From Tribonema minus (lineage: Eukaryota > Sar > Xanthophyceae > Tribonematales > Tribonemataceae): DNA of 64,000 nucleotides. How positions within the stretch are numbered: position 1 is the stretch's first letter; each line of letters starts with the position of its first letter. The stretch lies in contig JAFCMP010000412.1 in the NCBI GenBank assembly GCA_017506865.1, positions 372,001 to 436,000 of the forward strand. The letters are read 5' to 3'. Shown piece by piece: positions 9,854 to 62,640 of the stretch. The notes beneath the pieces were generated by a model. It was not told the DNA's origin. It saw nothing but the letters and a program-made list of their open reading frames with translations, and searched no databases. A program made the position numbers and the translations under genes.

Positions 9854-12800
9854 ATGGCGGGATCGGAGAATACGGACAAGCATGCCGCTGTGGACGAGGC
9901 AATGCTGAAGCGAATCGTGCAGGGTCTGTTGTCCAGGTACTACCTTGCGTTTCGTCGTGATCGTCAATGAGAGCTCACGAGGTTCCGTGACCTCACGCCC
10001 ATCGTGTTTCCACAGTGAAATGGCATTGCGCTATTTAAAATGTCGACGTTTGCAGCCCGCACTGTAGAATAGCATGTACTCCGCGCAGTCGTGAAAAATG
10101 CTCCGGCTTGACTTGAGATGTATTGGGGGATATTTGAACTAACTGCATTTGGTGACTATTGAACAGCGTCTTGCAATAGATTGAAAGTATTTGTTCTTGA
10201 TGCGGTATTGTGTGACACACAATTGTGCCCTCACTTTACAGAGATGTCTTAGCCAACAGTTCACTTTTAGGCAACTGAGCAAGTAGCGTTGGGGCTGGCT
10301 GTGCTGCTGACCACCTGCATCTTTGCAGTCCTCATCGTTGAGCTAATAACGTAGTGCCGGCTGCCCTCAAGACACTGGTGTCTTTTCGTTTCACCAGCTA
10401 CATGTGCTTGACGGAGCAAACCTGTACGCTGCAAGTGCGCTCTGTCACTGGGTCCTGCACACTCCCCAGGGCCATTGCAATGTACACCTCAGCTCGCGCA
10501 AGAGCTCATCGACGACGCTGTCTGCAAGACAGTATTGTTGCAGCGCACACTGACTGCAATAGCAGGTTGCACTAAGAACTGGTCACCCAGCCTCGCAAAG
10601 ACACATCACGGCGCAGCACACGCCTTCGGAAGCTATTTCCCACGACTGGGTGGGGAGTGTGCTCGCGTGGTCTTGCTAAGGGTTGCATCAGATTCCGCAA
10701 GCACCATTACGCGTAAAATACATCATGCCTGCACCTTACAAACTGCTGCCTTTGAATCTTACACATCTGCCAGTCGTGCACGTATGCGTGGGCCCAGCTG
10801 GAGTCGATAAAACCTTCTGAGACAGGCTGCCACCTCTGAGTTGTTTGTATTCAAAGGCAGCTGCAATGATGTTGTAGTGTCCTGCCACCCCAGAAGGGGG
10901 AAGCTGCCCTGCCGAGTGTGCAAAAGCTATTGAGCTCAGTTGTAAAGCCAGAGTCACCACAATGTTGTCGGTACTGCGCTCAAACTTCAACGGGGAGCTT
11001 CGCCTGAAACAGCGCTCATGCGCCATTCCCTCTGCCCCTGCCTCTGCTTCTTCGCGCGGTGCAAGTCACTCTGGCGTGCAGCAGCAGCAGACCCTGCTGT
11101 CGTAATCTCCAGTCGGGCACGTTGCCAAAAACAGCTTTCATGCGCGTTGCTCATGCGCCTTCGCCTCTTTTGCTGACTCCGGTTCTCCCCCTCGTCACAG
11201 TCACTCCGGCGTGCAGGAACAGACGGTGCTAGAGCACATACACCCTGAGGTCATATTCTACCACTGGGCTGTGCGCACCCGCAACCGCGAGGACTACCTC
11301 AAGTGCTTCCGCCTCTACACGCTGCTCAACGCGTCCAAGCCCGTGTTCAGGGAGATCATCATAGAGGGCGACAAGGCCATGGTGTGGGTCGACCAGCACG
11401 TGCGCTGCAACCTCGTGCCCAGCACGTGGTGGAAGCGCGCGGTCGTGCCGACGCTCGTGATCTTGAAGTTCGTGGAGCTGCCCGGCGGCAGGCTGGTCGT
11501 GAAGGTGAGCGATGGTTGAAATGATGTGGTGCCGCGGCTTATCAGTTGAAGTCTGTGAAGGTGCATCAATGAATTCCTGAGTGCGAGAGTAAGTGTCTAG
11601 CGCGCGATGTGCGGTCGTGCCGACGCTCGTCATGTTGAAGTTCGTGGAGCTGCCCGGCGGCAGGCTGGTCGTGAAGGTGTGTCGTGCCGTGTGGAAACGC
11701 CCATGCATGTGTAGAACTACGTACAACTTATGTCTGCAACTGGAAGTGCTTGAGACGACTGTTCGTTCGCAAGTGTGTTGGAAGCGTGCGGTGGTGCCGA
11801 CGCTCGTCGTATTGAAGTTCGTCGAGCTGCCCGGCGGCAGGCTAGTGGTGAAGGTGCGTCAACGTCCATGAGCCTGATGCATATTATCTGCTTGTGCCTC
11901 GTCAAAATGCCCATACGTGTAAAGAGATAAGTTTGCAGCTGATTAGCTCAGACCACTTGTGTGTGCCTAAGTACGGCATTAGCGGGTGATCGTGCCGACG
12001 CTCGTCATATTGAAGTTCGTGGAACTGCCCGGCGGCAGGCTGGTCGTGAAGGTGAGTGATGGCTGAAATGATGTGGTGCTGCCGCTTATCGGTTGCAGGC
12101 TGTCAAGGCGCATCAATGTTCTTGAGACCATTGTGCGAGAGTGATTGATGTGGAAACGTGCTGCGCGGTCCTGCCGACGCTTCTCAGATTTAAAGTTTGG
12201 AGAGCTGCGAGCTGCGACGGCAGGCAGGCTACTAGTAGTGGTGAAGGTGCGTTAACGGTCCAGACCATAGCGGTAGAGTCCGTGGTAGTTTGAGTATTGT
12301 GATTCAGAAGTTTGCAGAGCCGCCTGGAGACAGTTTGGTGGCGATACGGCCGTAAGTTGATGCACGCACGCAAGTGATGACTGAAACGATATGGTGCCGC
12401 TACCTGGTATATGTTGTACCTTCAAGTACTTCAAACTCAACGTTCACGGATGTACTGCTATGTCCTCATTTGATGACAGTGAGTAGTGATGCTAGAATCA
12501 TGCATAGTCTGGCTGCAGGCGCGCATTGCAGTGGCCTCAGACCCCGCTTTCAGCTCTGCAGAAGTTTGCAACGCTTGCTAGCCTGCTCCATTGAGGCAGC
12601 ACAACAGATGCTGCTGCTTTGAGCAATGAGGTTTCCGCATGTGACAGGGCGTATTTCAAGTCAATGCTGAGCATCCGTTTGCGCACTGACCACACGGCAA
12701 GCTCACCCCCCAAATGTTGCGCTCCCACCTCCCCCCAACCCCCAAACCACCCTGCACCCTCAGGAGCACACCGACCATATCTCGCTGTACAGCTTCATCT

Positions 12801-12979
12801 GGTCCCTCGGCGGCCCGGGCTTGTGGACCTTTGAGAAAATTCTGCAGCCGCTCGGCAACTGGACGTGCTGCAAGCTGATTGGCGCGTACGACTCGTGGAC
12901 GCGCCCCACACGGCAGCACCTCAGCTGGTTCTGGGGGGTGCCCGCGGGCAGCGCGCCGCCGGTAGAGCACAAAAGCTGA
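9854..12979 (+). CDS. NTF2-like (SigF-like) protein, three exons
   Basis: Exons 9854-9936, 11201-11504 and 12764-12979 join in phase (2, then 0) to give 200 residues. The introns are GT-AG, with acceptors TCACAG and CCTCAG. The exon-2 region (HPEVIFYHW, then EIIIEGDKAMVWVDQHV, then LVPSTWW and LPGGRLVVK) reads as an alpha/beta NTF2-type cone. Exon 3 adds HISLYSFIW and FEKILQPLGNW, as in the SigF-like NTF2 proteins of plants and algae. No function beyond the fold is known to me. The short first exon begins MAGSENTDKH and has no targeting signal. Both introns are odd: intron 1 repeats the exon-2 head, and intron 2 holds five extra copies of the exon-2 tail with its donor (separate entries). Without transcripts the first exon is the least certain part. 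Confidence 0.72.
11000..11200 (+). repeat. Upstream echo of the NTF2-like exon 2 head
   Basis: AGTCACTCTGGCGTGCAG at 11064-11081 copies AGTCACTCCGGCGTGCAG at 11199-11216, which spans the acceptor and first codons of exon 2. The sequence before it (TCATGCGCC...CTCTGC...CTTC) is also repeated, so the unit is about 135 bp. In the copy the acceptor dinucleotide is preceded by CA-A rather than C, giving a poorer site. Confidence 0.75.
11505..12400 (+). repeat. Tandem echoes of the NTF2-like exon 2 tail and donor (five extra copies)
   Basis: The last about 65-75 nt of exon 2 plus its GT donor and following intron recur at about 11611-11676, 11779-11853, 11985-12051, 12165-12246 and, strongly decayed, 12300-12352. 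The spacing is 170-200 bp. The first four are followed by GTGTGT, GTGCGT, GTGAGT and GTGCGT. The third also keeps the intron sequence after the donor (GATGGCTGAAATGATGTGGT), as in the original. The first three encode the same peptide as the exon except for I/M/V exchanges. Confidence 0.9.
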
Positions 12980-15900: not shown

Positions 15901-16123
15901 GCATGGACTACCGAAAGCGGGGGGACAGGGATGGGGGGGGGGGGGGGGCGGAAAGGGGGTGTGTGCGCACAACGGAAAGTGACCTAAAGGTGCAAGAGGG
16001 TGCAGTGCTGCTGCAGCGCATACTCAACAGCAGCAGCTCCGGTGCACATGGGGCCAAATGCTGGCGCTGCACGACTATTCTACTCAGAAGGGCGTGCAGC
16101 AGCTGCTGCCAGGGCGTGCCGGT
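12980..16123. other. Intergenic, no supported gene
   Basis: I find no exon chain or recognisable domain. The stretch contains mixed repeats: CTTCAACTTGAAGT at 13012-13025, a G run at 13080-13089, and a C/G-rich block with a 14-G run near 15936-15949. Plus-strand open frames are short and of random composition. It separates the NTF2-like gene from a block of minus-strand coding-like sequence. Confidence 0.5.
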
Positions 16124-22036: not shown

Positions 22037-22235
22037 ATCACGCAATTCGTGGGCTGCATGTATCTGGGTAGCATTCAGTACGTGTGCTGTATGTCTCATA
22101 CACTTCATGTGGCTGTATGTCCCTGTGTAGCATGCAATGCATGTGCTGTATGCAATGATTGTATTGTATGTCACCTGCATAGTGTATCACAAAATCATGG
22201 GCTGTATGTCCCTGTGTAGCATACAGTGCAATTGC
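22037..22235 (+). repeat. CTGTATGTC satellite array, right part
   Basis: Continues the units seen at 20870-21384 (GGGCTGCATGTATCTGGGTA, GTGCTGTATGTCTCATACAC, GGCTGTATGTCCCTGTGTAG). It ends near 22235, where unique sequence begins. Confidence 0.8.
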
Positions 22236-28109: not shown

Positions 28110-29383
28110 GAATCTCAGAGCCTATGAACCTTGCCTAGGGATAGTGCACTTTCAGGCCTTACACAACATGGTCAACAGCAACGTTGCCAGACCAATCCAC
28201 ATTCTTTCGTGGCACTTTCGGGGCACTCACGGAGGTCCCTGGAGAAGGGGTGGAGCTCGCCTGGGAGGGACTGTAGAGACACTGTGTAAGGCACAAACAA
28301 AGCACACCAGCTTTAACCAGGGTTCAAAGGCGCTAAGGCGCGGAACACCCTCATCTACTACTAGCGGCGACTGGCACCTGCACAATGACCGGCATTTGTC
28401 TGAGCCTGACTTCGTTGAGCATACCGCAGCCCTGCGAGTGCCACCAACAATGCGCGCATAATAGAGCATGTGTTTCTTGTGCTTGTGCTCAAATACATGC
28501 TACGTGTGCGTTTGGTTGTGTTCTGGTATATGCGTCCTTGTGCTACTTGTGTGCTGTGAGAATGCCTTGCCTGCTTAAGAGCAGTGCGTCAGCCAGCGTC
28601 AACTGAGGCATGCACCTGAGGCTCTTAAATCTGATGTGCTGCTCACTTCTCAAACATGAGGTCAACCACCTGAGGCAGCTATATTGCATTGGGTTCATGT
28701 AGGGTTTCATTGGGCTAATGTATGTAGGGTTTCGTTGGTTTTGTGGTGCTCATGCAGGGTTTTGTTGGACTCATGCAGGGTTTTGTGGGCTCATGCAGGG
28801 TTTCGTTGGGCTCATGCAGGGTGTGTAGGGTTTGTGGGCTCATGTGAGGTTTCGTTGGACTCATGCAGGGTTTCGTTGGACTCATGTAGGGTTTCGTGGG
28901 GCTCATGCAGGGTTTCGTTGGGCTCATGCAGGGTTTCGTGGGGCTCATGCAGGGTTTCATTGAGCTCATGCAGGGTGTCGTTGGGCTGGAGATGAGGTTC
29001 GTATAATTTTAGTCTCGGTAGTCTCAAGGCATTTCTTGTAAAGTCTCTACCGTTCACTCTAGCATAGTATGTACTTCAATTCTGCAAAAAGCAATTGCAT
29101 GCAAAGTGCAAGCGCGCCACACTGCTCCATGCGTGCTGAGTAGTGATGGTGTTCAGCACCACTTTATCATGGACAATCAATTGACCCCTCCCTCTGAGGC
29201 GACGTCAGCCGGTAAATGTTGTCTAAGGCATTACGTCGCACTTTGTCTAGGCTAGGTTCAAGGGCTCTGAGGTTCTCATACTTCACATGAGCCTAGTCTA
29301 GTCTAGCCCTGACTTGGTTGACCATGTTGTGTAAGGCCTGAAAGTGCACTATCCCTAGGCAAGGTTCATAGGCTCTGAGATTC
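28110..29383. mobile_element. 1.27-kb unit with perfect 67-bp terminal inverted repeats
   Basis: The 67 bp at 28110-28176 (starting GAATCTCAGAGCC) are repeated without a mismatch in reverse complement at 29317-29383. The interior has no transposase. It carries a 21-bp minisatellite (28694-28990) and a second, diverged inverted copy of the outer motif near 29264-29290. This is the layout of a non-autonomous DNA transposon (MITE-like). I could not identify a target-site duplication, so a hairpin-forming local duplication remains possible. The identical arms imply a recent origin. It lies 380 bp upstream of the alcohol dehydrogenase start. Confidence 0.65.
28694..28990 (+). repeat. 21-bp minisatellite (CATGCAGGGTTTCGTTGGGCT)
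   Basis: About 13 units of 21 bp, with occasional 18- or 24-bp variants. GTTGGACT, GTTGGGCT and GTGGGGCT versions alternate. The frame stays open on both strands because 21 is a multiple of three; the peptides are a by-product. Confidence 0.9.
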
Positions 29384-29763: not shown

Positions 29764-32700
29764 ATGTCTTCTGGAATGGATCTGAGCGCCAAGGGCATCC
29801 ACGCCACCAACGCCAAGGGCCCTTTCGAGGCCACATCGTTCACTAGGCACCAGCCTGGGCCCAAGGATGTGGTTCTCAGCGTAAAGTACTGCGGCGTGTG
29901 CCACAGGTGAGCAAGATTGTCAATCTTCCAGTGCTGATTTCGGACGCTTCCAGTGCTCGAATGCTTTGCTCAACGAGCAAGTGACTGCAGCACACACTCA
30001 CACGCGATGGCTCAACTTACGTGTTACCAGCAGTTGGCAACTGTGCCTTCTGATAGCCCTCTTTTGGCCTTCTACGGAACACGATGCTGCTGCTGCGCCA
30101 TTGCTTCACACACTCGCAGTTGCCAAGCACACTCGCAGCCGTGTGCTGTGAGTTTGGATCTCTTTGTCTAGATTGGCAATTGATCACTCGTCACTCTTAA
30201 TGCATCATGACGACTTCGCCGAGTTGTATGTGTGCATAAAGTAGTTCTGTGGTACGCCTTTTAGGCAACTGTGCTCGACTTTTTCTGCAACTCCCAAATA
30301 AGCGCATCTCGGCACACAACACCCACTCTCAGGCTGAAGTGTGTCCCCTGTGTGTGTGTGGTGCGCCCCTTTAGACAGGGCCAATTCCGCTCTACTTTTT
30401 CTGCAACTCCAAATACGCTTTTCGGCAGACACCAACCACTCTCAAGCTGATGTGTGTATCTCTCGGTTGTCCGTGCCATTTCCTTATCTCTACAGTGATG
30501 TGCACGCCGCCAAGGACGACCCGTCGGTGAGTCTGATGATGCGCTTGCCTGCTTCTGATGTGCATTGCTTAAGACATGCTCAATTTGTGGAGAGGTGTTC
30601 AGTTCACATGTCACCGCACACGTGATAAATGCGCAACAGTGATCCTTGCAACAGTGATCCTTGCAACAATGATGTGCAGCGAGCCAACCTCATTCAGTAG
30701 CATTTGCCATTGACTGTGCGCTGCTGCAGTTTTGAGAGGCTCACCACAACTGCGGGTGATTTCTGCGCATTGCCGATCTGCGGCCCCTGCACCCGTGACA
30801 AGGCTCAGCAGCAGCCAGCTCACTCTGAGCACCTGCAATTCCCTCAGCTGTGTCACACTTGTGTTACATGCACCAGTCTGTCAGCACACACCCTTCAGCG
30901 CAGCAGCAGCAGCAGCAACTTTTACTTTCAACACACACTAACCTACACCCACCCCCCCCCCCCCCCCCCCCCCCCAGCCCGAGAAGTTCCCCGTGATGCC
31001 CGGCCACGAGATCGCGGGCGTCGTCGACTGGGTCGGCTCTGAGGTCACCAAGCTCAAGCCCGGTGACCACGTCGGCGTTGGCTGCATGGTGGACTCCTGC
31101 CTGGACTGCGAGTTCTGTAAGTTGAGCAACGAGCAGTACTGCGCCAACGGCTGCACCATGACGTACGGCGGCGAGCCCAAGCATGGCCGCGCCGGCAGCG
31201 AGACGACGCGTGGCGGCTACAGCACCAAGATGGTTGTTACGGTGAGTAACGTAGTGGACTTTTTTTGATAGAGTTATCATGAACACCCATGCTTCGAGCG
31301 TCAAAAGGTGTGCACACAGAAGGTTTGTTGCCTACTGTAGATATGGTGGCACTGTCTGACTCGAAGCCAATGACTGCAGCAGCGGCGTCCACGGTTGTTG
31401 GTGGAAGGCACTGCGGCTTACCATCCCTTGTCACCAGATGTACGATTTTTGAATCTTTTTTGTTTGAAGTGTCGTGAAAAGAATACTCAGCAAGAAGATG
31501 GGCATACTGTGTGTGCGGGGCAATTAGCTTTGCTGCTTAGCTTTGCTGAATGTCCCTGGGACATGGATGCGAGGAGGGAACTCAATTGCTTGCAATGCTG
31601 ATGGGTTAATGCAGAGATGGTGGGCTTTTAAATGGGTCTTCTGGTGTGCAGACAAGTGCTGATCATGTGTGCCACTCGTGCGCATGGTCTCGGCTCAAGT
31701 GGGGCTGAAACCACCATGACTGAGTACTTGGTAATCTTTGACACTTACATGTTGTGCTGAACCTGGTACGTCTCCTCTTGACCTCGGTGCTCATCTTCAA
31801 CAGGAGCACTTCTGCGTCAAGGTCCCCAAGGACCTTCCCCTGGAGGTTGTGGGCCCTATCCTGTGTGCGGGTGTGACTGTCTTTGACCCCCTCGTGCACT
31901 GGAAGGCGGGCAGTGAGCACGTCAAGCACGTCGGCATCGCGGGCGGCGGTGGTCTCGGCCACATGGGCATCAAGCTGGCTAAGGTGAGTACTTGTCATGC
32001 TCTTGAGAGGTGGCATGTACTTCAAGTATGCATAATTGAAGTGGCTTACGTGGTTGGCCACATAGGCATCAAGCTGGCTAAGTGGGCACTTGTCGTGTAT
32101 GTATACATAATTGAAGTGGCCAACATGATTGAGCCAGGCCTGTGCAGGTCCAGCTTGGGTTAAGTGCTGTGCTGAGCACGTATGTGTCGGCTTGGGATTA
32201 CAGCAAACCAGCATTGCCTGCTGCTGTGTTAATCACAGTGAATCACAATTGCGTAAACGGCATCACAATAAGTTTACTCAAACTTATGCTGGTCATGGGG
32301 GTGCTCTGTGTTCAACTCTCAACTCTCTTGAGTGTTCCTTATCCGTCAACTTCTCCCGTTATGATGCTAACCCAGTCTTTTCCACTTACCTACATGAATG
32401 TTTGCAGTCCCTCGGCTGCGAGGTCACCGCCATTACTTCCTCTCCCAAGAAGGTTGATGCCCTGAGGGAGCTGGGCGCTAGCCGCGTCATCGTCTCCTCC
32501 GACGAGGGTGCTATGAAGGGTGCTGCCAAGTCGCTGGACCTGATCATCAACACCATCTCCGCGCCGCACGACATCATGATGTACCACGCGCTGCTGCGCC
32601 CCAACGGCACACGTGAGTGACCCGACTCGTGTGACTGACTCAATGACTCAAATTGCTGACAAATTAGTAAGCACACGTGGCGAACTGGTGATGTGTTGAT

Positions 32701-41500: not shown

Positions 41501-44500
41501 TCGCATGGGGTTGATCCATATGTGGTGTGTAGTGCATTGCTGAAACTAAGCTGGTGGGGCTCATAATCACATGGGGTTGGCGCTTTCCCGAAATGTCAAC
41601 CCTAAACCCTGAAATCAACCCAACCGTAAGCCGCACGGCCGCGGCACATTGGTGTGAACAACAACGAGGCGGTCACACTGTGTCCGCTCATAAATGCAGC
41701 GTTCATCCAGCTCTCATAGCGCCATCCGCTCTACCGCTCAGCTGTACAAGCCACCGATCCATTGGCCTGGCAGTTTCACGCAAATGGCGCTGCAACTGGC
41801 GCTTGCAAATGGCCTGGGAGTTGCAGGCAAATGGCGCTAAAAAGGGCGCCTGCAAATGGCACTGCAAACGCCATCTGCCCGAACCTGACAGGTGAATGGA
41901 TCTGCGGCTTGTACTGCTGCGCGAGAGAGGGGGTGGTGATGCAGCTGCCTCTGAACGGCGGCTATGGGCAGACACAGCGTAGATGCCTCCTTGTTGCTCA
42001 CACCAATGTACCACGGCCGTGCAGACGTCACACAAACGTCACAAAAACACCTAACACGCGCCACACTTGCAAAAGTTGATGCCTGCTGCTCACTCCCTTG
42101 CACGCGGGGCACGTGCCGAGGCTCCCCCCCCCCTTCCCTGAGCCTCCATCCTTAGCCCTAGCTTCAGCCTCATGGGTCATGCTCTCGCGCGCACGCCTTC
42201 ATGCTTAACCTTCAAGTACACACATTTATTATTATACGACACACGCTGTGCACTCACGTACATCTGACCTGCAAAACGCCCAGCGCGCGCCATGGGATGG
42301 CCCAAACCCTAACCTCAAACCCTAAGTACATCTGACCTGACCTCAAGCAGTAAGTCACAAAACTTCCACCTCTCGCCACCCCGCAAGCAACGCACACGCA
42401 CACGGCGCACTCACTTGCACGCGGGGCACGTGACGTGGCTGCGCAGCAGCCCGTGGCAGCGATCAACCAGCACCGAGTCGTTGCGCAGCAGGTACCGCCG
42501 CCACGAGTCTTCCGCAACGACCGCGTCGGGACGCCCATCGGACTCCACCGCCTCCACGTAGGGCTTGCGGCGCACCCGATTAAGGTCTTCGTGGAGGCCG
42601 TCGAGAAGGAAGATCATAAGCTCCTGGGAGTCCTGCTGCTGGTAGCCGGCGAACGCGGGGGCGTGCTCGCCGATGACCTGGGGGATGGTGGGGGGGGGGA
42701 GGTAGGTAGGGGTATGAGTGAGGTAAGGCGGGTGCGCAGTGCTCAGTAGGGGTAACCGGGGCCAGTGTGATTACTATGGATTCAGCATGACTACTGTGGA
42801 TGCATTAGTAGGGGCTTCAGGGTTCAGGATAGGGTCAGCACTCTGGCGACGGACACACAACATGGTTCTATTGCATCGGAGTCCTCTGGTATGCGACGAA
42901 CACGGGGCGTGCTCACCAATGAACTGGGTAGGGGGTATAGGTGAGGAAAGGGGATAGGTAGGATGCAGTGCTCAGTAGGGGTCAGCACGGGCTCTCATCG
43001 CCACGACCACGTGTGTGGAGGCATCAGTAGGGGTCTAGTCTAGGCGTTAGGGGTTAGGGTGGGAAGGAGCACTTGCACGACAGACACAAGTTGTTGACTG
43101 GCGAGAGTCCTCTTGTGATGCGGCAAGGGTGGGGGGGGTGCTCCATGGCCTGACAGGGGGGTAGGAGTATGGTCAGATGGGGTATAGGTATTGGGTAGTT
43201 GCAGGCGCTGGAGAGAGCAGTGCTCAGAGGGTAGGTACAGGTATAGGTGAGGGGTGACTGCGGGATCAGCAAGAGCAGTGCTCATAATGCTACACTTTGA
43301 GGTTACATCTAGGGCAAACCACTGCAGACCTGCATGCTTGGTAGTGCTTTCAAAAACTGCACATGTACGCACCCACTTGAGCGCGGCGCGCGCGACCTGC
43401 GCGCAGCGCCCGTCTCGCATGGTGCCGTTTGTAATTTGCTTGTGAAAATGGTTTCCTCCTGTACATGAACTATGTAGCAAATTTCAGCAAAATGGGTTCC
43501 TTCTGTACACGCACTAGCAAATTGCAGTGGGCCGTAACCCTACCCCTAGCCCTGATGCTAGGGCACTCACCCGCTTGAGCGCGACCGGCGCGACCTGCGT
43601 GTAGCGCCCGTCCCACAGGTTGTGCACGAGCTCCATGTGTATTCAAGTTGCCACTAACCTCAGATAGAATCCTTGTGACAACCACTGCGGAAATGCGTTT
43701 ATTATTGATGGTGCTCACAAAACTGCACATGTACGCACCCGCTTGAGCGCGGCCGGCGCGACCTGCGTGTAGCGCCCGTCCCACAGGTTCCGCACGAGCT
43801 CCGCGTACGCGCGCGCCATCTTGCCGTCGGCGCCGAGCGCGTTGTCCTCGTTGAGGTCGACGCTCCAGCCGCCGCTCTTGAAGTACGCCGTCAGCGCCCC
43901 CGTCGCGCTCAGGCACTGCAGCATGCTGTTCATGAAGCACGTGTTGCCGAGGTTGTGGAGGCCGACGGCGCCCGGCTCCGCGGGCGTGCCTACCGTATTG
44001 CCGCGCTCCCCCCACGAGTACCCTCCACTGCTGGTGGAGGAGAAGGTTGAAGTGGCGGCGGGGAGGGCGCGCTTCTTGGCCGTGCCGAGCGCGCCTGCGG
44101 CGCCGGCGAGCGCTGACGTGTGCGTGCCCACGGGCATGATGTCGTCCGAGTCAAAGGCCACCCAGCGCGCCTCGTCGCGCGTGGCGACGCTGACCTTGAC
44201 GAGCGCGCGCGCGTTGTCTGCGCGCACAGTTAGTGTTGGGCGGTTGCGGCAGCGCAAACAGCGTGGGTCAGGGCGCGCGCACAGGCGGTGGGCAGGTGTG
44301 ATTTCACTTTATGATGAGTGCATACTTTGAAGTACATACATCATCAACAGGAGCAGGCCGCCCAGCGCGCCTCGTCGCGCGTGGCGACGATGACCTTGAC
44401 GACCGCGCGCGCGTTGTCTGCGCGGGTGCGCAGGTGCACATGGTCGGTGGTTGTGATATCACGGCAGAATGGCTCAGGGCACGTCAAAGGACTTCTGTCC

Positions 44501-47500
44501 GTAGTTTTGTTTTGGTAAAAAAATGCATTGTTTGTGAACAAAATAATCATACGGGCGGTATACTTTTGATGTCTGCGCAGCGACGGTGGGCGGTTGCAAC
44601 ATTGCAGCGACATGGGCGCAGGGCGGGTGCAAGGTGGTAGGCAGGTGCAGTTTCACGACATCATGGCTCCGAATGCGACCCTGTACATGGTCGTGATTCC
44701 GCGCCATGATGAGTTCGTGCACTTCGGATGGTCTACGCACACTTAACAGGTGCAGCATGTTCTCATGACATCACCTCAAGACGAGGTGTGCAGGGCGCGG
44801 TAGGCAGGCTTCGGTACGGTGCGCAAAGGTGGATGGAGGCGTGCAGCGCAGATGTGAAGTTGAAGCTGAAGTTGGTTGTGATCTGGAGCGGCGGGTCCTC
44901 ACCATTCAAGACAGCACGTCTGGCCTGTGGCAGGCAGCGTCGGCCTACGTGTGATACGCAATGCTGAAGTTGACAGCACCATGTTGAGGTTGCTGCAGGA
45001 GGGCTCTCACCTGTCAAGTGGCCTGCTTCTGAGGCGTGCAAAGCTTGCAAACCCTGACCCTCACCGCAGCACATGCGATGCACGTCCGCCGTCAATGCAA
45101 CAATCGTGAGAACGCACCATGTGATGCTTTCATACCTCGTTGGGCGTACGCAGGCTAACCCTAATCCTAACCCTAACCCTAACCCTAACCCTATGAAAAC
45201 AGTGGGTTGGTTTATGCTGCCGCTGCCGCCGCCACCACCAGCAGTGGTGGGAGCGGCAGCTCTGGTCAGCACATGCTTCCATGGTCACAACCCCACTCAC
45301 TACACCTGTTGCCTTGCACACGACCCTTGGCCCTGACTTAGATGACCATACTCAGACCCAACCTTAGCCCGCATTGATATTTCACCTTGTCATTGAAAAA
45401 TAATCTTGCAGCGCAGGCGGGGATGCCCCTGGTCAGGCCTTCACCGTACCTACCCTTACCACTCCCACCGCTCCCATCAGCCATCGGTCCACCTCCCCCA
45501 TAACAGCCGGGTACCAGCGCACCGCGCCCGCGGGCGGCAGCGGGATGTCGAGCGCCATCGCCTTGGCCTACGCTGATACCTACCCTTACCCTATGCCATA
45601 TACCCCCACCCCTCACCTTTGTCAACCTCCGCCACAACGGCTGGATACCAGCGCACCGTGCCCGCGGGCGGCAGAGGGATGTTGGAGCGCTGCTGCCTTT
45701 GCCTACACTGATACCTACCTACCCCATGTACCCCCTCACCCCCTCACCTTTGTCCACTTCACAGCAGGGTACCAGCGCACTGCGCCCGCGGGCGGCAGCG
45801 CGATGTTGAGCGCTGCTGCCTTTGCCTACACTGATACCTACCTACCCCATAAAATCTACCCCCTCACCCCCTCACCTTTGTCCACTTCCTCCACCACAGC
45901 AGGGTACCAGCGCACCGCGCCCACGGGCGGCAGCGGGATGTTGAGCGCTGCTGCCTTTGCCTGCACTGATACCTACCCTTACCTTACGACACTTACCCAC
46001 CCCCCCCCTCACCCCCTCACCTTTGTCCACTTCCTCCACCACCGACGGGTACCAGCGCACCGCGCCCGCGGGCGGCAGCGGGATGTTGAGCGCTGCTGCC
46101 TTGACTTGCGTCGACGCCGGCATGTACGGACAGCTCATGTCGACTGGCGTGCCCACGGCCAGGGCGCTGCGCCAGTCGGCTGTGTACGTGTGCAGCGGCT
46201 GCAGCGTGTCGGCGTGCACACGCATGGAGAGGTCCCACTTGCTGCTCCAGCCCTTGAAGTGGACGGTGACCTAGTGTTAGGGTTTGGGTACAGGGGGGAG
46301 GGGGGGGTGAGGGGGGGGGGGGGGGATGCAGAAGTGACCATTGCCATTGCTGCGTGCCGCATGTGAATATGGTTGTTGGTGCTGGCAGTGCTGACGGCAC
46401 AGCTGCACAGTCTTGGCCAGCCTGAGAGAGCATGTCAAACTGCAGTAGTGCTCATGCTGCGCTGTCGTCTGGTCGGCCAATGACGCGAACCGAATGTGCC
46501 AGGCCACCTGTGCCTGAGTCAGTACCAGCACACTAGAAGGGGAGAGACGTCGATTGAAACTTAACCTCATTGAGCGCCAGCACTTCACGATACGCCCTCA
46601 ACCCAGTTGCCCATACACCGCTGACCAACATTGAGAACACCCCAGCAAGCAACTCCAGAGGAGCAAATCTCAACTCTTTAGCGCCGAGTTGACGTCAACA
46701 CTGATGCGCTCAAACTCCTTGCTTTCACCATCTGCGCGTGCCAGCATTTTCAACTTCAACATAACTTTTGGTACTTCGAGAAAACTTCGCCTCTTTCGGC
46801 GCCGGCGTGAGCACGGCGATGACGCTCTCTTGCCCCAATTGCTCGCGCCCAGCAAGCGCTGCGCATGTAGAGAAGAGCAAATTGAAGATCCAGCTGAAAC
46901 TTTACCTCTTTCTCCTTTGCTTCCGGCTTGTTGAAGCCCACGATGACGCTCTCAAACCACTTGCCCTCGTTGTCTTTTGCGTCCACGAGATCGCCGGGCT
47001 GGAGCTCATCGCGCCAGCCGTCGGTGATGGCGTGCCTGGGGAACAGCCCCGTTACGGGGTCCCTGACTTCCACGAGGACCTGCAAGGGGGCGGAGGGGTT
47101 GTCAGCAGGTCGCAGCAGTGCTTCACGTGTCAAAAAAGAATAAAATGGACACCAACAGCTGTCGTCACGCCGCCAAAAGAAGCAGCCATTGTGAATGTTA
47201 TTATTTGTCGTTCTGTTCTTAAACGTCCACGCGCAAGCTCGGAGTTCATGACTGGTCACCTGCAAAGGGTGTCAAGTCGCCAACCAGCGCACCCTTGCAC
47301 CTGACTCCCCTCCCTGGATACTCAGCGAATGAGTTGGGCTTACATAGGGTTGGCATCGTCTCTGAGCGACAGCGTTGTTAATGCCGGCACTTTTGGGTAT
47401 GTACGTACATGCGTACGCTGTAACAGCCGGAATCCTGTTACCGTGCCGTATTACTGGCTAGGGCTAGCATAATGTTGAAGTTGATCACTAGGTTATCATA

Positions 47501-50500: not shown

Positions 50501-53442
50501 CGCGCGCTTGCAACACGTTGCCAGCGGCCGACGTGCACGCTGCTACGGCTTAGGGTCAGGGTTAGGGTTAGGGCTCTCGCTGCGCTGCAAAGGCGCTGGA
50601 GCACGCAAAGCTGGTACTCCCCGCGGCACGAGCGCTGCCGCATCCTCTATGCACACGCGCACGCACCGCCGTCGCCGCCGCCCACTGCGAGCTCTGCCCC
50701 ATCCACTATGCACGCGCTGCCCGTGGTCTACGTGCGCGCTCGCTGCTCATGAGAGGCGCCAAAGTACGCAAGGCTGGAATTCACCGCCGCAGGAGCCCCG
50801 CCGCATGACCTGCACACACGCGCACGCACCGCCGTCGCCGCCGCTCTGCCACACGCGCTACGCCAGACTACACGTGCGCTCGCCGCGCAAAAGACACGCC
50901 GAAAGGCTTACGACCAGCAGCATGAGCGCTGTCACATCATCTACACGGCCCTGTACGCACCGCCTTCGCCGCCGTCCACGTCCATGCCGTCCGCCGCCGC
51001 CGCCGGCGCCGCCGTAGGCGAGCCGCGCGCCCCGCCCTCCTCCGACGACCGCGGGCTCTCGTCGCTAGAGTACACGCCGCCCTGCGGCACCATGTGCCAC
51101 CCGCCGTTGCCGCCGCCGCTGCCGCCGCCGCTGCCGCTGCGCGCGTCCGTCGGGGACGCCGCCTCCTCCTGCTCTGCCGCCGCCGCCGCAGGCGCTGCTG
51201 CGGCTGCTGCGGCAGGTGCGGGCGTTGCCGTGGACATGTCCGCCGTATCGAAGATGTGGTCGGCGAAGCGCACGCTGATGCGCGCGTCGTCGTTGTTGGG
51301 CGCGCCGAGGCGCTCCAGGACGGTCGCGCGCACCTGGCGCACCGTCTGCGCGCGCGAGAAGAGCTGGTGGCGCCACGCGGCAGCGTCGCGCTGCGGCGGC
51401 GGCGCCGCGCCGTCCGCGCCGCACAGCGCCCACGAGAAGCGCAGCGGCCACAGCTCCACCTGGCGGGGGGGGGGGGGGGGGGGGGCGGGGGCGCGCATGG
51501 GTTCAGGCAGGGTTCAGTCAGGGTTCAGTCAGGGTTCAAAGGCAGTGCCTGCGCCTACGAGAGGCGCAGCTGTCACAGCTCCACTTGGGGAAGGAGAGGT
51601 ACATGCGTGGGTCAGCCAAGGTTCAAGCTGGCTTCGCTCACAGTTCAGATGAGGTTCAAGGCGGTGGCGCCGCGCCGTTCATGCGGCACAGCGCCCGTGA
51701 GACGCGCAGCGGCAACAGTTTCGCCTGTGGAGGACAGTCGCTGGTGTTGGATCAGCAGCGCGCACGCACATCAAGTGCGCTACCATGCCATACATACACA
51801 CGTGTGCGCGCTCACCGTGGGCACGTGGTTGTCGGGCCCGCCTATCTGCCTCTCGATGACGGCGCGCGGGAAGTGCGGGCCGCCGCCGTACCACCCCTGC
51901 AGCTGCTGGTACGCGCCCTGCGGCAGCAGCACAAAGTCGTAGTGCTCCTCCGCGTCGCGCCGCAGCTGCGCCTTCCCGCCCTGAGCGCTGCCGCCGCCGC
52001 CGCCGCTGCTGCTGCTGCCGCCGGCGTCGGTCTCCGTGTCCAGCAGGTCCTCGTTGCTGATGGGTCCGGGGTCGGGCGGCACGTCAACTTCACCTTCGTC
52101 GGCGCCCGGCGCGGCGGCGGCGCTGTCCGCGCCGGCGGCGTAGGCCTGCCAAGCGCTGTACCATTTGCGCGATATCGGGTACCTGAAGGGGGGGGGGGTA
52201 CAGGCGGGGTGTGTGTATGTGGGTACAGAAGTGGCGTGTGTAAGGTGGGTCGATGTATGGGCCTCGCGTCCGTCAGCTGTGTGCTGGATAGTGGGGTCAG
52301 GCAGCACGTCAACTTCATCTGGGGCGCAACGAGGAGCTTCCGCCGGCCATGCGGTCGCGTTGAGCGCGCTGCAGCGCTGTGAAATACGCATTACGCGACA
52401 CGTGTAGCATTATGCCAATGGCGCAGGTGACTGTGTGCAGACAGTGCGGCATGTCAATGTTATCTGAACCAGCAAAAGTAGCATTGTCTGTGCTGATGAC
52501 GGAGGCCTGCCTGCCACTCGCTGTAAATCTCGTGGAGTGGCAGGCCTGAAGTGGAGCTTAGAGGGCTGGAAACATCTGGTGAAGCAGAAGTGACAGATGT
52601 ACTCCCCTTTGTGCAGCCATAATGGCAATTTGCTGCTGCGAGGTGTAAATGTAGCAAGTGTAGACAAAGGCATGAACGTGAGAGGTAACTTCAATTCATC
52701 TCTCAAGTTTGCATTGACAGCGGCCAACATGTGTACTCAGGAGGCGAAATAAACTCACGATGATGGGTCTGCAACTCAGCTTGTGAGAATAATTGCTTAC
52801 TCTTTCAATTAGAAAAAAAAAAAGCGAAGCAGCGGCAAACCTCCATCAACATGCTTGCAACAACTTCACAGGTAATCAAAGAGAAGATTGACAGGTATAG
52901 ATCACAGCCCTGATCCGAGAAAACAAGTTGTTATCCACAAAGATCATACGGAGCTTACGAACATAAATGGGTACAAAGACAGAAGAAAAGTGTTGGCGTC
53001 GTGTAGCACGGCTGACCACGCCGTATTCTTTCAGCAGTTTCGATACTGCAAAAAAGGGGTTGACACACTTGTGAAACTCGTGAAACTCCTAGATCCGCAT
53101 TCACTAGACGATAGTGGCGCTGCTTACACAGCAATGGCCCCACAAACACTGCCAGCGACGTGGTTGTTCTGCTGCGCGCGGATCAAAAGTACGAGTCGAA
53201 CGAACGGAAGATGCCGCCGAACAATCTGCACACAAATGACGGGATGTAGCCTGCCAATCAGCTGTTGACGCGTTGAGAAGACAACTATGACCATCACAGT
53301 GGCGATTCAATGCTGCTCACCATGTCTGGCCTGCCCTCAGCTTGACATCCTTCGTCATTCCCTCGATGATCTCTTTCTGCCTGTGAGCGGCAGGTGCCTG
53401 TAGACTGGGCGACGCATTGCGCGACCTGGGCGGGACCTCCAT
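35530..53442 (-). CDS. Ubiquitin-specific protease, DUSP-UBL-Tudor-USP architecture, twelve exons
   Basis: Exons, in coding order: 53442-53321, 52182-51816, 51459-50961, 49717-49488, 47079-46906, 46270-46021, 44217-43739, 42677-42415, 40940-39605, 38240-38109, 36872-36738, 35946-35530. All phases agree and give 1467 residues. Domains: DUSP about 38-170 ([26 protein letters not shown]); split UBL about 170-425 with an Ala/Gly/Ser insertion ([13 protein letters not shown] marks its end); Tudor/MBT-like about 430-505 ([19 protein letters not shown]); USP from about 633. Catalytic residues are C641 (LGNTCFMNS), H1412 ([10 protein letters not shown]) and N1429/D1430. The zinc-binding pairs CPAC and CSSC are present. 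Closest to USP4/15 and plant UBP5-type enzymes, which remove ubiquitin from proteins. A low-complexity insertion of several hundred residues (exon 9) interrupts the catalytic domain. An in-frame ATG at 53571 is an alternative start. Confidence 0.9.
36120..36225 (-). repeat. Upstream echo of protease exon 12 head
   Basis: TTTTTGTACGCCTGGCAG and the flanking G run (36202-36215) copy the acceptor and first codons of exon 12 at about 35935-35966. The preceding exon portion is also recognisable (GTGCAGGACAAGGATGTC against GTGGAGGATGAGAACGTC). The copy retains an intact CAG acceptor after a C-rich tract. Confidence 0.8.
36476..36737 (-). repeat. Echoes of protease exon 11 tail and GC donor
   Basis: The sequence GCTTGCCTGCTTGTGCTCCTTGCAGCTGCTGC around the exon-11 end (36732-36763) recurs almost unchanged at about 36636-36668. 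Weaker copies lie at about 36557-36595 and 36487-36515. The copied donor is the same GC-type (GCAAGC on the coding strand), so the GC donor predates the duplication. Confidence 0.85.
37455..38108 (-). repeat. Four tandem echoes of protease exon 10 tail and donor
   Basis: The exon-10 end (38109-38155, CTCGCGTGCTCCTCCTCACG with the ACATACCTGTA donor region) recurs at about 37985-38035, 37803-37858, 37583-37637 and 37459-37506. Each is preceded by the same intron start (GCAATACCTACATACCTG-like). The spacing is 120-220 bp. Several copies keep a GTA(T/C)G-type donor. Confidence 0.85.
42091..42125 (-). repeat. Echo of protease exon 8 tail
   Basis: CACTCCCTTGCACGCGGGGCACGTGCCGAGGCT copies the exon-8 end CACTCACTTGCACGCGGGGCACGTGACGTGGCT (about 42409-42441). 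In the copy the donor GTGAGT has become GGGAGT. It lies about 310 bp downstream on the coding strand. Confidence 0.8.
42678..43235 (-). repeat. Upstream echoes of protease exon 8 head
   Basis: The block spanning the exon-8 head, acceptor and the intron behind it (GCGGGGGCGTGCTCGCCGATGAC ... GGTAGGGGT ... GCAGTGCTCAGTAGGGGT) recurs at about 42890-42990. It recurs again, more diverged, at about 43090-43230. The first copy has lost the CAG acceptor (CTGGGT in place of CTGGGG keeps only part of it). Confidence 0.75.
43362..43738 (-). repeat. Two echoes of protease exon 7 tail and donor
   Basis: CGCTTGAGCGCGACCGGCGCGACCTGCGTGTAGCGCCCGTCCCACAGGTT at about 43571-43620 copies the exon end at 43739-43790 with one difference. 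A more diverged copy lies at about 43370-43420. The near copy is followed on the coding strand by a consensus GTGAGT donor, better than the GTGCGT used by the exon as modelled. Confidence 0.9.
44218..44840 (-). repeat. Upstream echoes of protease exon 7 head
   Basis: GCCCAGCGCGCCTCGTCGCG through GCGCGCGCGTTGTCTGCGCG at about 44350-44425 copies the exon-7 head and acceptor at 44158-44224 with few changes. Further copies of the intron part (GGGCGGTTGC...GTGGTAGGCAGGTG) follow at about 44585-44655 and 44790-44825. The near copy keeps the CAG acceptor. Confidence 0.85.
45153..45194. repeat. Interstitial telomere-like repeat (CCCTAA)n
   Basis: Six head-to-tail CCCTAA-type hexamers, one of them TCCTAA, lie inside intron 6 of the protease gene. 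This is the purest of many TTAGGG-like patches in the introns between 38 and 64 kb. Confidence 0.9.
45484..46020 (-). repeat. Four tandem echoes of protease exon 6 tail and donor
   Basis: The last about 75 nt of exon 6 (ending with the peptide [14 protein letters not shown]) and its GTGAGG donor recur at about 45871-45960, 45744-45828, 45612-45703 and 45484-45568. The spacing is about 130 bp. The first three keep the GTGAGG donor and the reading frame. The most distal copy has lost the donor. Confidence 0.92.
46690..46905 (-). repeat. Diverged echoes of protease exon 5 tail
   Basis: CGATGACGCTCTCTTGCCC at about 46818-46838 and CTGATGCGCTCAAACTCCTTGC at about 46701-46722 resemble CGATGACGCTCTCAAACCAC and the following TTGCCC in exon 5 (46940-46962). 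Weaker than the other echoes. Confidence 0.5.
47080..49487. other. Intron 4 of the protease gene
   Basis: This 2.4-kb intron holds a telomere-like patch (48073-48133, TTAGGG in both orientations) and a 14-C run at 48406-48420. At its 3' side it has repeated copies of the exon-4 tail (next entry). No independent gene is supported; a short exon-like stretch at 48340-48415 does not fit the UBL continuity. Confidence 0.6.
48887..49487 (-). repeat. Echoes of protease exon 4 tail
   Basis: CACCGCACCTCAACTCTCCCCTGGTAGTCCC at the exon-4 end (about 49480-49511) recurs at about 49390-49421 and 49297-49332. Shorter or more diverged versions lie at about 49195-49220, 49027-49045 and 48885-48910. Copies are followed by AAGTTGAAGTTA-type intron sequence. 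Several keep the GTGCGG donor. Confidence 0.8.
50625..50960 (-). repeat. Two echoes of protease exon 3 tail and donor
   Basis: GCACGCACCGCCGTCGCCGCCG at about 50660-50682 and again at about 50830-50852 copies the exon-3 end and GTGCGT donor (TACGCACCGCCTTCGCCGCCG at 50954-50974). Flanking CTATGCACACGCG-type sequence is shared by the two copies. Unit length is about 150-170 bp. Confidence 0.8.
51460..51740 (-). repeat. Two upstream echoes of protease exon 3 head
   Basis: GAGAGGCGCAGCTGTCACAGCTCCACTTGG at about 51559-51589 and GCGGCACAGCGCCCGTGAGACGCGCAGCGG at about 51680-51710 copy the exon-3 head (51410-51462). They share the following GGTTCA-rich intron pieces. The first copy has CCAAG in place of the CAG acceptor. 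Confidence 0.8.
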
Positions 53443-54035: not shown

Positions 54036-54242
54036 TCAAAGGCCACCGCACGACGGCGGCACCCACGTCCTGCGCCCGCGCGCGTCCCACGCCGGCACCT
54101 CCGTCACCACCTTCTTGCGCGACGCCGCCGTCTGCAGCATGTACGTGCGCGGCGCCGCAGCGGAGGCCGCGCTGCGCCGCGGCAGCCCGTCGGCGCTGCG
54201 CGCGCGCCTCAGCCCCTCGCGCGACCGGTCGCGCTGCCGCTG

Positions 54243-54273
<31 letters not shown>

Positions 54274-55636: not shown

Positions 55637-55679
<43 letters not shown>

Positions 55680-57501: not shown

Positions 57502-57648
57502 GGTGTTGCTACGGCCCAGAGGCCCTACCTTGGCAGCCAGAGTGCTGTAATCAGGCCTCGCCGACAAGAAACTGCTGATCAGAGGCCAACGAGCGTAGCG
57601 TCACCCTTGGAACTTGGAAGAACTTCCCGAAGTTGCCGAGAGAGAGCG
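57502..57648. promoter_or_regulatory. Short divergent intergenic region
   Basis: Only 147 bp separate the modelled start codons of the coiled-coil gene (-) and the pirin-like gene (+). The two genes probably share a bidirectional promoter. No TATA box is visible; the leader of the pirin side is purine-rich (GAAGAACTTCCCGAAG). Inferred from position. Confidence 0.4.
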
Positions 57649-60600: not shown

Positions 60601-62440
60601 CTACTTTTCAAAGTCACAGAGCTGTGCTTCAGCCGTGTAATACGCCCGAACAGTAACGAGCGATAGGTGTCATACGCCAAGCTATCAGGCATTGGTGGGC
60701 CGATCTCAGGGCCTGCGCTGTGATGCATGCATGCAGCCAATTGTACAATATGAGCATATGTATAGTTTATCTACTTAGTAGTATATATATATACATACGT
60801 TCTTTACGGTTTATCAATGCACAGCGCGGCGCCGCCTTGCTGTGGCTGCAGGCTGCCGCTGCTTTTTCGCCCTGGCAATGCTAAGCACTGCCTGTATCTC
60901 ATTGGAGCACTGCTGCGCTGCGCGGAATCGCCGAGCGCTGCCCTGTCCCGCTGTAAGCGCTGCTGCTGACGACCTGCGTTTTTCGCCACTGTCATCGCGC
61001 CTCTGCTACTAGCGCCACTGCGCTGCTGGATGCTTTTCCCTCAGCACGCTGCGTCCATCCTTCACGAGCGCTGCTGCTGATGGTCTGCGGTTTTGCCGCC
61101 GCGCCGCTGCCGACCGCTGCCTGTATCTCATTGGAGCGCTGCTGTGCTGCTCGACGAGCGCTACCCCGTCCCAGTGTGAGCGCTGCTGCTAATGACCTGC
61201 GCTTTTCGCCGCTGCGCCGCTGCCATCGCGCGCGTGCAGCCATCCCCACCGGGGGTTTCAGACGGTGACCTACGTCATGGAGGGGGGCATGGTGCACCGC
61301 GACAACCTGGGGGTCAAGCAGACGTACGGCGCGGGCAGGCGAGTCCACGTGCAGTACAGCCATTCACTTGAGTCTGTACTGTCATGTACTGTGCCATTGC
61401 TGGCGATGGAGAGTCACCTTTGCGCGACACTGCGACATGCGCGTGTGCGAGCGTCGGCAGCCCTAACCCTAACCCATGCAGTCGTGCCTTTGCTGCGCCT
61501 TTCCATTCATCAGATCACCGGCACGCGCTGCTCATGATGACATGGCATCCCCCATGATCGTGTCTGACTTGAAGTTGGCTGCATTGCTGAGCGCTGCTGC
61601 CGTGAAAGTCCCCCACACCACCACCACCAACAAACAACTACTTGTATGTATACGCACATGTCCAGTCAGTAGCATGTCACAGGCGCCGCCGTTCGACCAA
61701 CACGAAACAACCACTTGTGTGTATACAAGCAGTCCAGTCAGCAGCATGTCACAGGCGCCGCCGATTAGCCTCACTTGAAGTTGGCTGCATTTGCTGAGCG
61801 CTGCTGCAGCGTGCACTTTCTCGACACCACCAACACCAAACAACTACGTGTATGTATCCTGACATGTCCAGTCAGTAGCATGTCACAGGCACAGGGTGCC
61901 ACTCTGGCCTCACTTGAAGTTGGCTGCATTTACTGAGCGCTGCTGCAGCGTGCAGGTCCTCGACGCAGGCTCCGGGCTGATGCACGAGGAGATGTGGTCC
62001 ATCGACCCCTGGAAGCGCACGGGAATTGAGATTTATCAGCTATGGGTGAGAGCAAAATGCACTTTTGTCGCGTTTTGGTTCACGTGGCGGTTCTGTTGTT
62101 TGCGCGTACTGAATGATACTTCAAACAGTGCATGCATTGCTCTTCAAGTTTGCGCACTTCTGACAACGTGAGGTGATGATTCCTGTGCATTTTACGTGCA
62201 CATGTACCAGTGTGCCTACCCCACACAGGACGCGTTCAAGCTCTTCAGCAGAGTAACTTGGGCGCAATGTCATCAAGTCCTTCAGAACAGTAATGTGGGG
62301 CGCTGCTCCATTGCCTGCTTGCTGCTTGCTTGCAGGTAAACTTGCCAGCGCAGCACAAGATGTCCAAGGCACGCATCCAGCTGCTGGGGGAGGGCACAGA
62401 CACTCCGCTGCCGCGTGTGACTCTCCCCAGCAAGGCAGAG
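57649..62440 (+). CDS. Pirin-like protein with complex-plastid-type N-terminus, at least seven exons (3' end not found)
   Basis: Exons 57649-57750, 58007-58178, 58864-58943, 60331-60437, 61240-61338, 61949-62045 and 62336-62440 join in phase to 254 residues. Pirins are iron-binding double cupins. The ligands are visible as H155 and H157 (HPHRGF) and H199 and E201 (MHEEM); LWVNLPAQHKM is the usual segment after domain 1. The stretch IWPVQNGVIITILDFLG...GGRVCPM before DPFLLL is typical of the algal subgroup. Residues 1-20 are hydrophobic and Cys/Leu-rich and end in SAGAFV, like the ASAFAP cleavage site of complex-plastid proteins, followed by a Ser/Pro/Gln-rich, acid-poor stretch. The second cupin half is missing and probably lies beyond 64000. 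Donors of exons 3 and 5 are GC. The exact function of algal pirins is unknown. Confidence 0.85.
58738..58863 (+). repeat. Upstream echo of pirin exon 3 head
   Basis: GATCTCAAGTTGCTGGCGTCGTGGCCGGCGCAGAAACAGTG at 58738-58778 copies the exon-3 start GGTCTCAAGTCGCTGGCAACATGGCTGGAGCAGAAGTGTG (58863-58902). Unit length is 125 bp. The copy lacks the CAG acceptor (GAAAG precedes it). Confidence 0.85.
59478..59650 (+). repeat. Dispersed repeat in pirin intron 3 (copy of 31285-31462)
   Basis: Partner of the repeat in intron 3 of the alcohol dehydrogenase gene, same orientation relative to transcription, about 75-80 percent alike by eye. It is the only long sequence shared by introns of two different genes here. 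Confidence 0.75.
60129..60330 (+). repeat. Upstream echo of pirin exon 4 head
   Basis: GCAGGGCCTCTCGGACCCCTTTCTGCTGCTG at 60177-60207 is identical to the acceptor and first 27 nt of exon 4 (60327-60357). The preceding intron sequence is also shared in diverged form. The copy keeps an intact CAG acceptor. The unit is about 150 bp and looks very recent. Confidence 0.95.
60855..61239 (+). repeat. Tandem repeats before pirin exon 5
   Basis: A block with GCACTGCCTGTATCTCATTGGAGC, GAGCGCTGC and TAAGCGCTGCTGCTGACGACCTGCG (from about 60880) recurs at about 61110-61205 (CTGCCTGTATCTCATTGGAGC, GTGAGCGCTGCTGCTAATGACCTGCG). The period is about 230 bp. The 3' part of the unit adjoins the exon-5 acceptor. 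Confidence 0.8.
61560..61948 (+). repeat. Two upstream echoes of pirin exon 6 head
   Basis: ACTTGAAGTTGGCTGCATT(T)...CTGAGCGCTGCTGCAG, which leads into exon 6 at 61949, recurs before 61812 and before 61602. The nearer copy continues CGTGCACTTTCTCGAC, matching the exon start CGTGCAGGTCCTCGAC and keeping the CAG acceptor. The farther copy reads GCTGCCGTGAAAGTCC. All share TCCAGTCAGTAGCATGTCACAGGC spacers. Confidence 0.9.
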
Positions 62441-62640
62441 GTTAGTAGGTTCGCACGGCACCATATCTGTAGCATCCGCACCTAAGGTGTCTGTCCATGG
62501 AAGTGCCATGAATGGGACTGGTGCACCGTTGTTCTGCCTCGTGTGGTGCTCTTCAGCAAGCTGAATGCACCTGGAAGTATGTGATACAGGCGCTTTCCTG
62601 CCGCATGTGACTCTCCCCAGGAAAGCAGAGGTAAGTAGGT
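62441..62640 (+). repeat. Echo of pirin exon 7 tail with a stronger donor
   Basis: CCGCATGTGACTCTCCCCAGGAAAGCAGAG at 62601-62630 copies the exon-7 end (62411-62440), unit 190 bp. The copy is followed by GTAAGTAGGT, the original by GTTAGTAGGT. The following intron sequence (TGCACG-CACCA, ATGGGA-TGGTG-ACCGTTGTT) is duplicated as well. Confidence 0.92.

Follow-up and report, generated by a model that had tools for sequence, protein, structure and literature searches.

Why do the ends of exons, together with their splice sites, recur inside the introns next to them? The question is raised by a 64,000-nucleotide stretch of the genome of Tribonema minus, a yellow-green alga (Xanthophyceae). This stretch, here called the window, comprises bases 372001-436000 of contig C412, in an assembly of 158.2 Mb and 554 contigs. 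A preliminary description had reported that in its NTF2-like, alcohol dehydrogenase (ADH), protease and pirin genes the exon tail plus donor is copied downstream and the exon head plus acceptor upstream. We call such copies echoes. They are local, and they are several times more frequent at splice boundaries than elsewhere in a wider sample, 294 kb of the same contig (172001-466000, the window included). Our best account, still tentative and slightly more open to doubt than to belief, is that local duplications fell over existing boundaries and that the real exon afterwards renewed the exon part of the echo, by re-copying or by exchange.

Echoes of exon ends in the window

For each boundary, the 60-80 exon bases next to the site, extended by 8 bp of intron, were searched on the intron side, with an empirical threshold at the 1% level derived from 300 unrelated stretches and with the reverse complement as control. 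The 29 boundaries tested belong to the NTF2-like, ADH, ubiquitin protease (USP, including a Tudor-like part) and pirin genes and to a gene at 50.9-52.2 kb. The two boundaries of the 31-bp ADH exon lie outside this set, and the tested USP boundary at 42411 is an open frame end, the exon of P0121 (a submitted T. minus protein) ending about 4 bp before it. On the intron side, 13 of the 29 boundaries have one or more copies of the exon end in the same orientation; the reverse complement gave none (0/29). The copies number 25 in total, one to four per boundary; the echoes reported earlier are present, and the counts given for them (about 20 boundaries with one to five copies) are higher than these. 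Two of the copies are very short (46817-46829 and 62534-62560). Only 1 of 10 tested boundaries is echoed in ADH, against 12/19 in the other window genes. By BLAST, 66 of the 69 window repeats within 3 kb are direct and four pairs are further apart than 3 kb, in agreement with the same-orientation, local character first described. The echoed exons and their echoes are listed below in window coordinates.

11217-11504, plus strand: NTF2-like exon, tail and donor echoed (gene finder; protein P0241 joins LVVK directly to EHTDH)
11611-11679, plus strand: NTF2-like echo 1, tail and GT, 67/69 identical, intron flank dissimilar to the real one
11775-11856, plus strand: NTF2-like echo 2, tail and GT, 73/82
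11981-12059, plus strand: NTF2-like echo 3, tail and GT, 72/79, intron flank similar too
12163-12228, plus strand: NTF2-like echo 4, decayed, 50/67
31804-31983, plus strand: ADH exon 4, tail and donor echoed (intron position common to the paralogue in L023)
32050-32082, plus strand: echo of the ADH exon 4 tail, period 99 bp, donor altered (TG in one alignment, GTGGGC in the other)
35530-35946, minus strand: USP exon, C-terminal catalytic part, head weakly echoed (Pfam UCH; gene finder)
36105-36183, minus strand: weak echo of the head of USP exon 35530-35946, 59/83
36738-36872, minus strand: USP exon echoed at both ends, apparent GC donor (gene finder)
36634-36694, minus strand: tail echo of USP exon 36738-36872, 55/62, with weaker copies at 36560-36607 and 36488-36510
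37015-37077, minus strand: head echo of USP exon 36738-36872 with AG, 50/63
42411-42677, minus strand: USP exon, head echoed, tail weakly echoed at 42088-42123 (Pfam; P0121)
42878-42928, minus strand: head echo of USP exon 42411-42677 with AG, 44/56
43739-44217, minus strand: USP exon echoed at both ends (Pfam; P0121 joins AALKR directly to VIGEH, the 44217 end not covered)
43565-43634, minus strand: tail echo of USP exon 43739-44217 with GT, 66/70, flank dissimilar; second copy at 43365-43427 (54/63)
44355-44424, minus strand: head echo of USP exon 43739-44217 with AG, 67/70
46021-46270, minus strand: Tudor-like exon of the USP region, tail and donor echoed (gene finder)
45487-45955, minus strand: Tudor array, four echoes with related flanks (45868-45955, 45740-45820, 45609-45697 and 45487-45555)
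50961-51459, minus strand: predicted exon, head echoed (gene finder)
51551-51588, minus strand: head echo of exon 50961-51459, 33/38; second copy at 51660-51727 (56/68)
62337-62440, plus strand: pirin exon, tail and donor echoed (read by eye; Pirin domain on the neighbouring exon)
62598-62638, plus strand: echo of the pirin exon tail, then GTAAGTAGG, 37/41

Exons were predicted with a small gene finder trained on the same 294 kb, which recovered all seven exons of the ADH gene; one ADH donor was corrected using P0001, a 93% identical protein. The USP exons of the window are matched at 100% by P0121, with 33% of the query covered. Outside ADH, USP and NTF2-like, the boundaries come from this gene finder, with additional support from Pfam domains that cross junctions in the BK-type potassium channel, a protein kinase and USP; these domains run unbroken over the echoed junctions once the echoes are omitted. 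Eight of ten predicted or joined proteins scanned against Pfam were matched, with no match for the two pieces taken as parts of an aquaporin-like protein and a second kinase. The pirin exon boundary was placed by eye. The USP exon end at 36738 looks like a GC donor, and the P0121 model has nine extra residues there which are absent from its homologue P0123.

Enrichment at splice boundaries

The wider sample adds 230 kb of flanks fetched around the window and unseen in the preliminary description. Of the local pairs (within 3 kb), 196 have direct and 12 inverted orientation. A repeat copy reaching at least 12 bp to each side crosses 24 of the 165 boundaries of strong exons. By a looser rule, BLAST-level echoes are found at 32 of 179 boundaries (9/31 in the window and 23/148 in the flanks), and the recurrence in unrelated genes holds in both. 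These counts are lower bounds because the low-complexity filter of BLAST hid some echoes; for example, the copy at 44355-44424 was seen only in later alignments. Circular shifts gave a mean of 6.5 echoed boundaries, and none of 5000 reached 32.

Comparing matches across the boundary with those in exon and intron interiors, as had been proposed, bore out the concentration. Applied to control positions, the same rule scored 1.2% of those lying more than 60 bp deep in exons, 2.1% of intergenic ones separated from any exon by more than 300 bp and, in introns, 5.6-6.3% at distances of more than 150 or 60 bp from an exon, the intron figure containing the intron parts of the echoes themselves. Boundaries are thus enriched about 3-fold over intron positions and about 8-fold over intergenic ones. 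Expressed per kb of opportunity, the density of pairs is 0.84 at boundaries (n = 23), 0.26 for intron-only repeats (n = 6) and 0.13 for intergenic ones (n = 23 clusters). Detection bias toward boundary pairs amounted to only 1.2-fold in simulation, which rules it out as the sole cause of the enrichment.

The matches also fall off with depth in the exon. Segments matching the adjacent intron at p ≤ 0.01 number 35/150 at 0-60 bp from the site, 8/149 at 60-120 bp, 3/121 at 120-180 bp and 1/87 at 200-260 bp, the corresponding reverse-complement matches being 2, 3, 4 and 0. The copied material is therefore the exon end.

Both the density and the fall-off speak for a copying process directed at splice boundaries, in which duplication is concentrated at exon ends or copies them only up to the splice site, possibly through breaks that arise at the edges of exons in connection with chromatin or splicing. 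We consider such a process rather unlikely. The gap between boundaries and introns is based on six intron-only clusters and is 3-fold when counted by positions; allowing for loss of either copy, it would narrow by up to another 2-fold. Enrichment at boundaries may reflect longer retention as well as more births.

Two other repeats lie in or near ADH. In ADH intron 1 (30273-30457), a 72-bp direct repeat without an exon part (85%, spacing 116) records local copying away from boundaries. Just upstream of ADH, where the local repeats of the region are nearly all direct, there is a perfect 67-bp inverted repeat (28110-28176 and 29317-29383, 1.2 kb apart).

Anatomy and polarity of the echoes

Copy spacing is 87-251 bp in 21 of 27 echoes. 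The exon part is 18-87 bp deep with a median of 50 (n = 27), while uniform placement predicts a median of 70 with 34% deeper than 90 bp (Kolmogorov-Smirnov p = 7e-6). This shallow depth counts for directed copying, which would account more directly for both the excess and the depth limit. In a larger set, 45 copies reach within 6 bp of the site, at 28 of 175 boundaries (one copy at 17, two at 7, three at 2 and four at 2), and the exon part exceeds 90 bp in 2 of the 45. GT or AG is intact in 36 of the 45, so that many copies do keep their splice dinucleotide, as first noticed. The copies were also rightly said to range widely in age, from near-identical to decayed (67/69 to 50/67 in the NTF2-like gene alone).

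Exon breakpoints are mostly alike within a boundary (82/82/82/73, 64/64/53, 64/64, 50/50 and 35/33 bp), with 81/72/91/55 and 65/34 bp as exceptions; one founding event per boundary is therefore indicated. One BK-channel intron holds echoes from both sides, of the tail of the exon before it and of the head of the exon after it.

Tail copies lie downstream and head copies upstream in 32 cases in the 294 kb, and the opposite holds in 3. The pattern described for the window prevails in the sample, but it needs no targeting: it follows from geometry and selection, because a duplication that crosses a boundary spares the mRNA only if the outer site (the first donor or the last acceptor) stays in use. 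We therefore rejected polarity as a mark of targeting; splicing logic, and which site remains usable, produce it.

Divergence of exon part and intron flank

A plain tandem duplication copies the intron flank along with the exon end. One could propose neutral tandem duplication everywhere, with purifying selection on the exon and only better detection of exon-anchored pairs at splice sites. This proposal accounts for the polarity, the direct orientation, the codon pattern described below and the loss of GT or AG in 9/45 copies. It also suits the cases with clean flanks: NTF2-like echo 3, the Tudor array and boundary 163919 (z = 36.7). At z ≥ 3.5, 17 of 34 echoes have a flanking intron that is still related in the direction predicted for a tandem copy; unrelated flanks reach that level in 1.0% (donor) and 2.8% (acceptor) of cases. 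That half of the echoes retain related flanks argues against directed copying.

The youngest echoes behave differently. In nine of them exon identity is about 94% or higher after rounding (one being 30/32, 93.75%), and at eight of these nine boundaries the 70-bp flank scores z < 5 (9/10 copies in the copy-level set). The neutral tandem simulation for this class gives a median flank z of 27-28 and P(z < 5) = 0.001-0.002, and neutral duplication is rejected for it. At exon identities of 84-94% the median flank z is 6.6, with 8/24 copies below 5, against simulated medians of 17-22. Several young echoes have no flank homology at all, for example those at kinase 147072 and USP 43738, a further point for directed copying. 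Exon-part indels are also too few for neutral decay (0.94 per 100, against 1.5-4 simulated at comparable divergence), and too many matches end just past the site: 37% end within 6 bp past it, against 6-12% in the pooled simulations. Old simulated classes (per-copy divergence ≥ 0.18) do reach 12-59%, but with an exon mismatch of 14.5-22% where 11.4% is observed. In the set of 34, 26 matches reach to within 4 bp of the site. Two simulations of purely neutral decay were run and neither fits the high-identity class. The boundary enrichment, too, exceeds the simulated detection bias. Neutral tandem duplication suits about half of the cases, and the youngest are not among them; as an explanation of the whole we find it unlikely.

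Gene 71, which we take from its sequence to be an ankyrin-like repeat protein, was excluded from the flank-homology and copy-anatomy analyses because its repeats belong to the protein; it is included in the codon-position, boundary-enrichment, indel-simulation and depth counts.

The BLAST pairs at ≥ 94% identity were sorted by arrangement. Non-coding pairs comprise five contiguous and three with a spacer, while exon-touching pairs comprise no contiguous one and eight with a spacer, of which three are one family and one lies on weak predicted exons. In these small numbers, births are not visibly commoner at boundaries, which weighs against directed copying. Among non-coding pairs at ≥ 84%, 10/17 are partial, and one of those ten has a related remainder.

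Use and constraint of the echoes

The preliminary description had suggested that echoes could act as decoy or alternative splice sites. This was unsupported where it could be checked. P0241, a Trinity-assembled EukProt protein, is 97% identical to the NTF2-like gene (144/148, whole query) and joins the two real exons directly, skipping four echoes. P0121 likewise joins the real USP exons directly between 43739 and 42677; its coverage stops short of the Tudor array and the 44217 boundary. In these two genes, the echoes appear to be removed along with the rest of the intron.

Mismatches between exon and echo rise with codon position (23/369, 38/363 and 62/371, or 6.2, 10.5 and 16.7%; five boundaries were lost in the mapping step of this analysis). 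Such a gradient is expected where mainly silent changes are tolerated in the exon and any change in the echo. On the sequence evidence this fits an absence of protein-level constraint on the echoes.

That echoes are alternative or poison exons, or decoy sites, kept by selection is in our view quite improbable. Their exon part and GT or AG do outlast the flanks, and the gene finder itself calls several of them exons. Retention of GT or AG is, however, about what the divergence of the exon part predicts by our own estimate, mismatches are spread over the codon positions as in an unconstrained copy, reading through the kinase echo leads to a stop, and the echoes are skipped in P0241 and P0121. 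Exon duplication giving mutually exclusive exons finds no support either, given the rarity of deep copies and the skipping of echoes in two genes.

Echoes and intron birth

Models of intron birth, by tandem duplication of an exon segment with AGGT or by introner-like insertion with target duplication, predict direct repeats near splice sites, and the echoes might be their traces. When the donor and acceptor windows of the same intron were compared, no clear excess was found in this small sample (0/36 at p ≤ 0.02 and 3/36 at p ≤ 0.05), and intron birth and target-site duplication were set aside. Of the 73 window repeats, 69 are local and four are further apart, and the window shows no dispersed family. 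The echoed ADH intron 4 is found at the same place in the paralogue L023 (contig C334), in which BLAST found no such echo; in this one gene the echo is therefore younger than its intron. We regard intron birth as very improbable as the source of the echoes.

Separately, ADH intron 1 (window 29907-30495; L023 8889-9041) is absent from the C334 paralogue, which shares introns 3 and 4, a case of gain or loss within the genome.

A proposed origin

In the account that we tentatively favour, a local duplication, with a spacing of mostly about 90-250 bp, would cross an existing exon-intron boundary, and the extra copy would survive inside the intron, where splicing removes it. One founding duplication per boundary is envisaged, growing to two to four copies at some. 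The intron parts of all copies would then drift apart, while the exon part of the echo would be kept alike by re-copying from, or exchange with, the real exon. As selection holds the real exon constant, the exon part of the echo would follow it. Such exon-anchored exchange would make homology break off sharply at the splice site and would keep boundary pairs detectable for long, so that boundaries look enriched. Our guess for the exon limit of about 90 bp is that longer copies would be recognised as exons and removed by selection.

Several points weigh against duplication followed by exchange. We infer the exchange from uneven divergence in the sequence. Young echoes without flank homology fit exon-limited copying equally, and the depth limit of about 90 bp is left unexplained by the account. 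The ninth echo of the high-identity class, the first of the Tudor array, is 95% identical and has a related flank (z of 8.8 and 14.3). Eight of the 34 matches stop 6-31 bp short of the splice site. Spacers may be a general property of local pairs, given the partial non-coding pairs. Finally, the sample is one region of one genome, with boundaries mostly from a self-trained gene finder.

Assembly error would be an obvious suspicion, tandem copies being a classic assembly problem. Divergence between the copies is widely spread, reaches about 30% and includes indels, and many genes are concerned; we consider an artefact scarcely credible.

The preliminary description had spoken of duplication centred on existing splice boundaries. 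A several-fold concentration there stands, and directed targeting is no more than a possibility. Something unusual is favoured by homology that breaks off at the splice site more sharply than in simulated neutral tandem duplication, and by the exon depth limit of about 90 bp. A bolder formulation, which we think doubtful though worth stating, takes exon ends as master copies: a boundary-linked process would repeatedly write the terminal 30-90 bp, ending at the splice site, into the adjacent intron, or would homogenise such copies with the exon. It would act on roughly every sixth boundary and would go on supplying cryptic splice sites and lengthening introns. If exon ends are indeed preferentially copied or homogenised, DNA change would be linked to splice boundaries and would provide a steady supply of duplicate splice sites, testable in one culturable alga. 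We know of no model of intron evolution that includes such copying or homogenising. The ordinary reading matters as well for annotation, as gene finders can call echoes exons.

Relation to described systems

Duplications inside genes that involve splice sites have reportedly been described. The echoes differ from these in that no new exon or intron was seen and in an exon share mostly below about 90 bp. Patch-mediated repair in rice reportedly yields small tandem duplications. We know of no concentration of break-repair duplications at splice sites, and, unlike the echoes, such duplications do not predict an end of homology at the splice site.

Small tandem duplications are attributed to break repair with fill-in by Pol alpha-primase (PMC8355091); the echoes resemble them in being direct, adjacent, short local copies. 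A review of intron gain describes tandem duplication crossing an exon-intron boundary and supplying copied splice sites (PMC3443670), and both features are common to the echoes. Unlike this mode of gain, echoes were not seen to make a new intron, and they occur at about one boundary in six, sometimes in several copies. A further study compares the two ends, 5' and 3', of one and the same intron for direct repeats of 4-30 bp (PMC11782384); direct repeats at exon-intron borders are shared with our case, but the similar 5'/3' comparison made here gave no clear excess. Introners are described as dispersed families arising by duplication of intron-related DNA (PMC9860276), while echo copies are local to each boundary. 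The pattern was not reported in the literature searched, which consisted of titles and abstract openings with most subscription journals outside its coverage.

Other repeats in the window

Two further repeats were noted. A 21-bp minisatellite of 11.7 copies occupies window positions 28737-28987, and a telomere-like CTAACC array of 6.5 copies lies at 45155-45193, within the gene-rich USP region.

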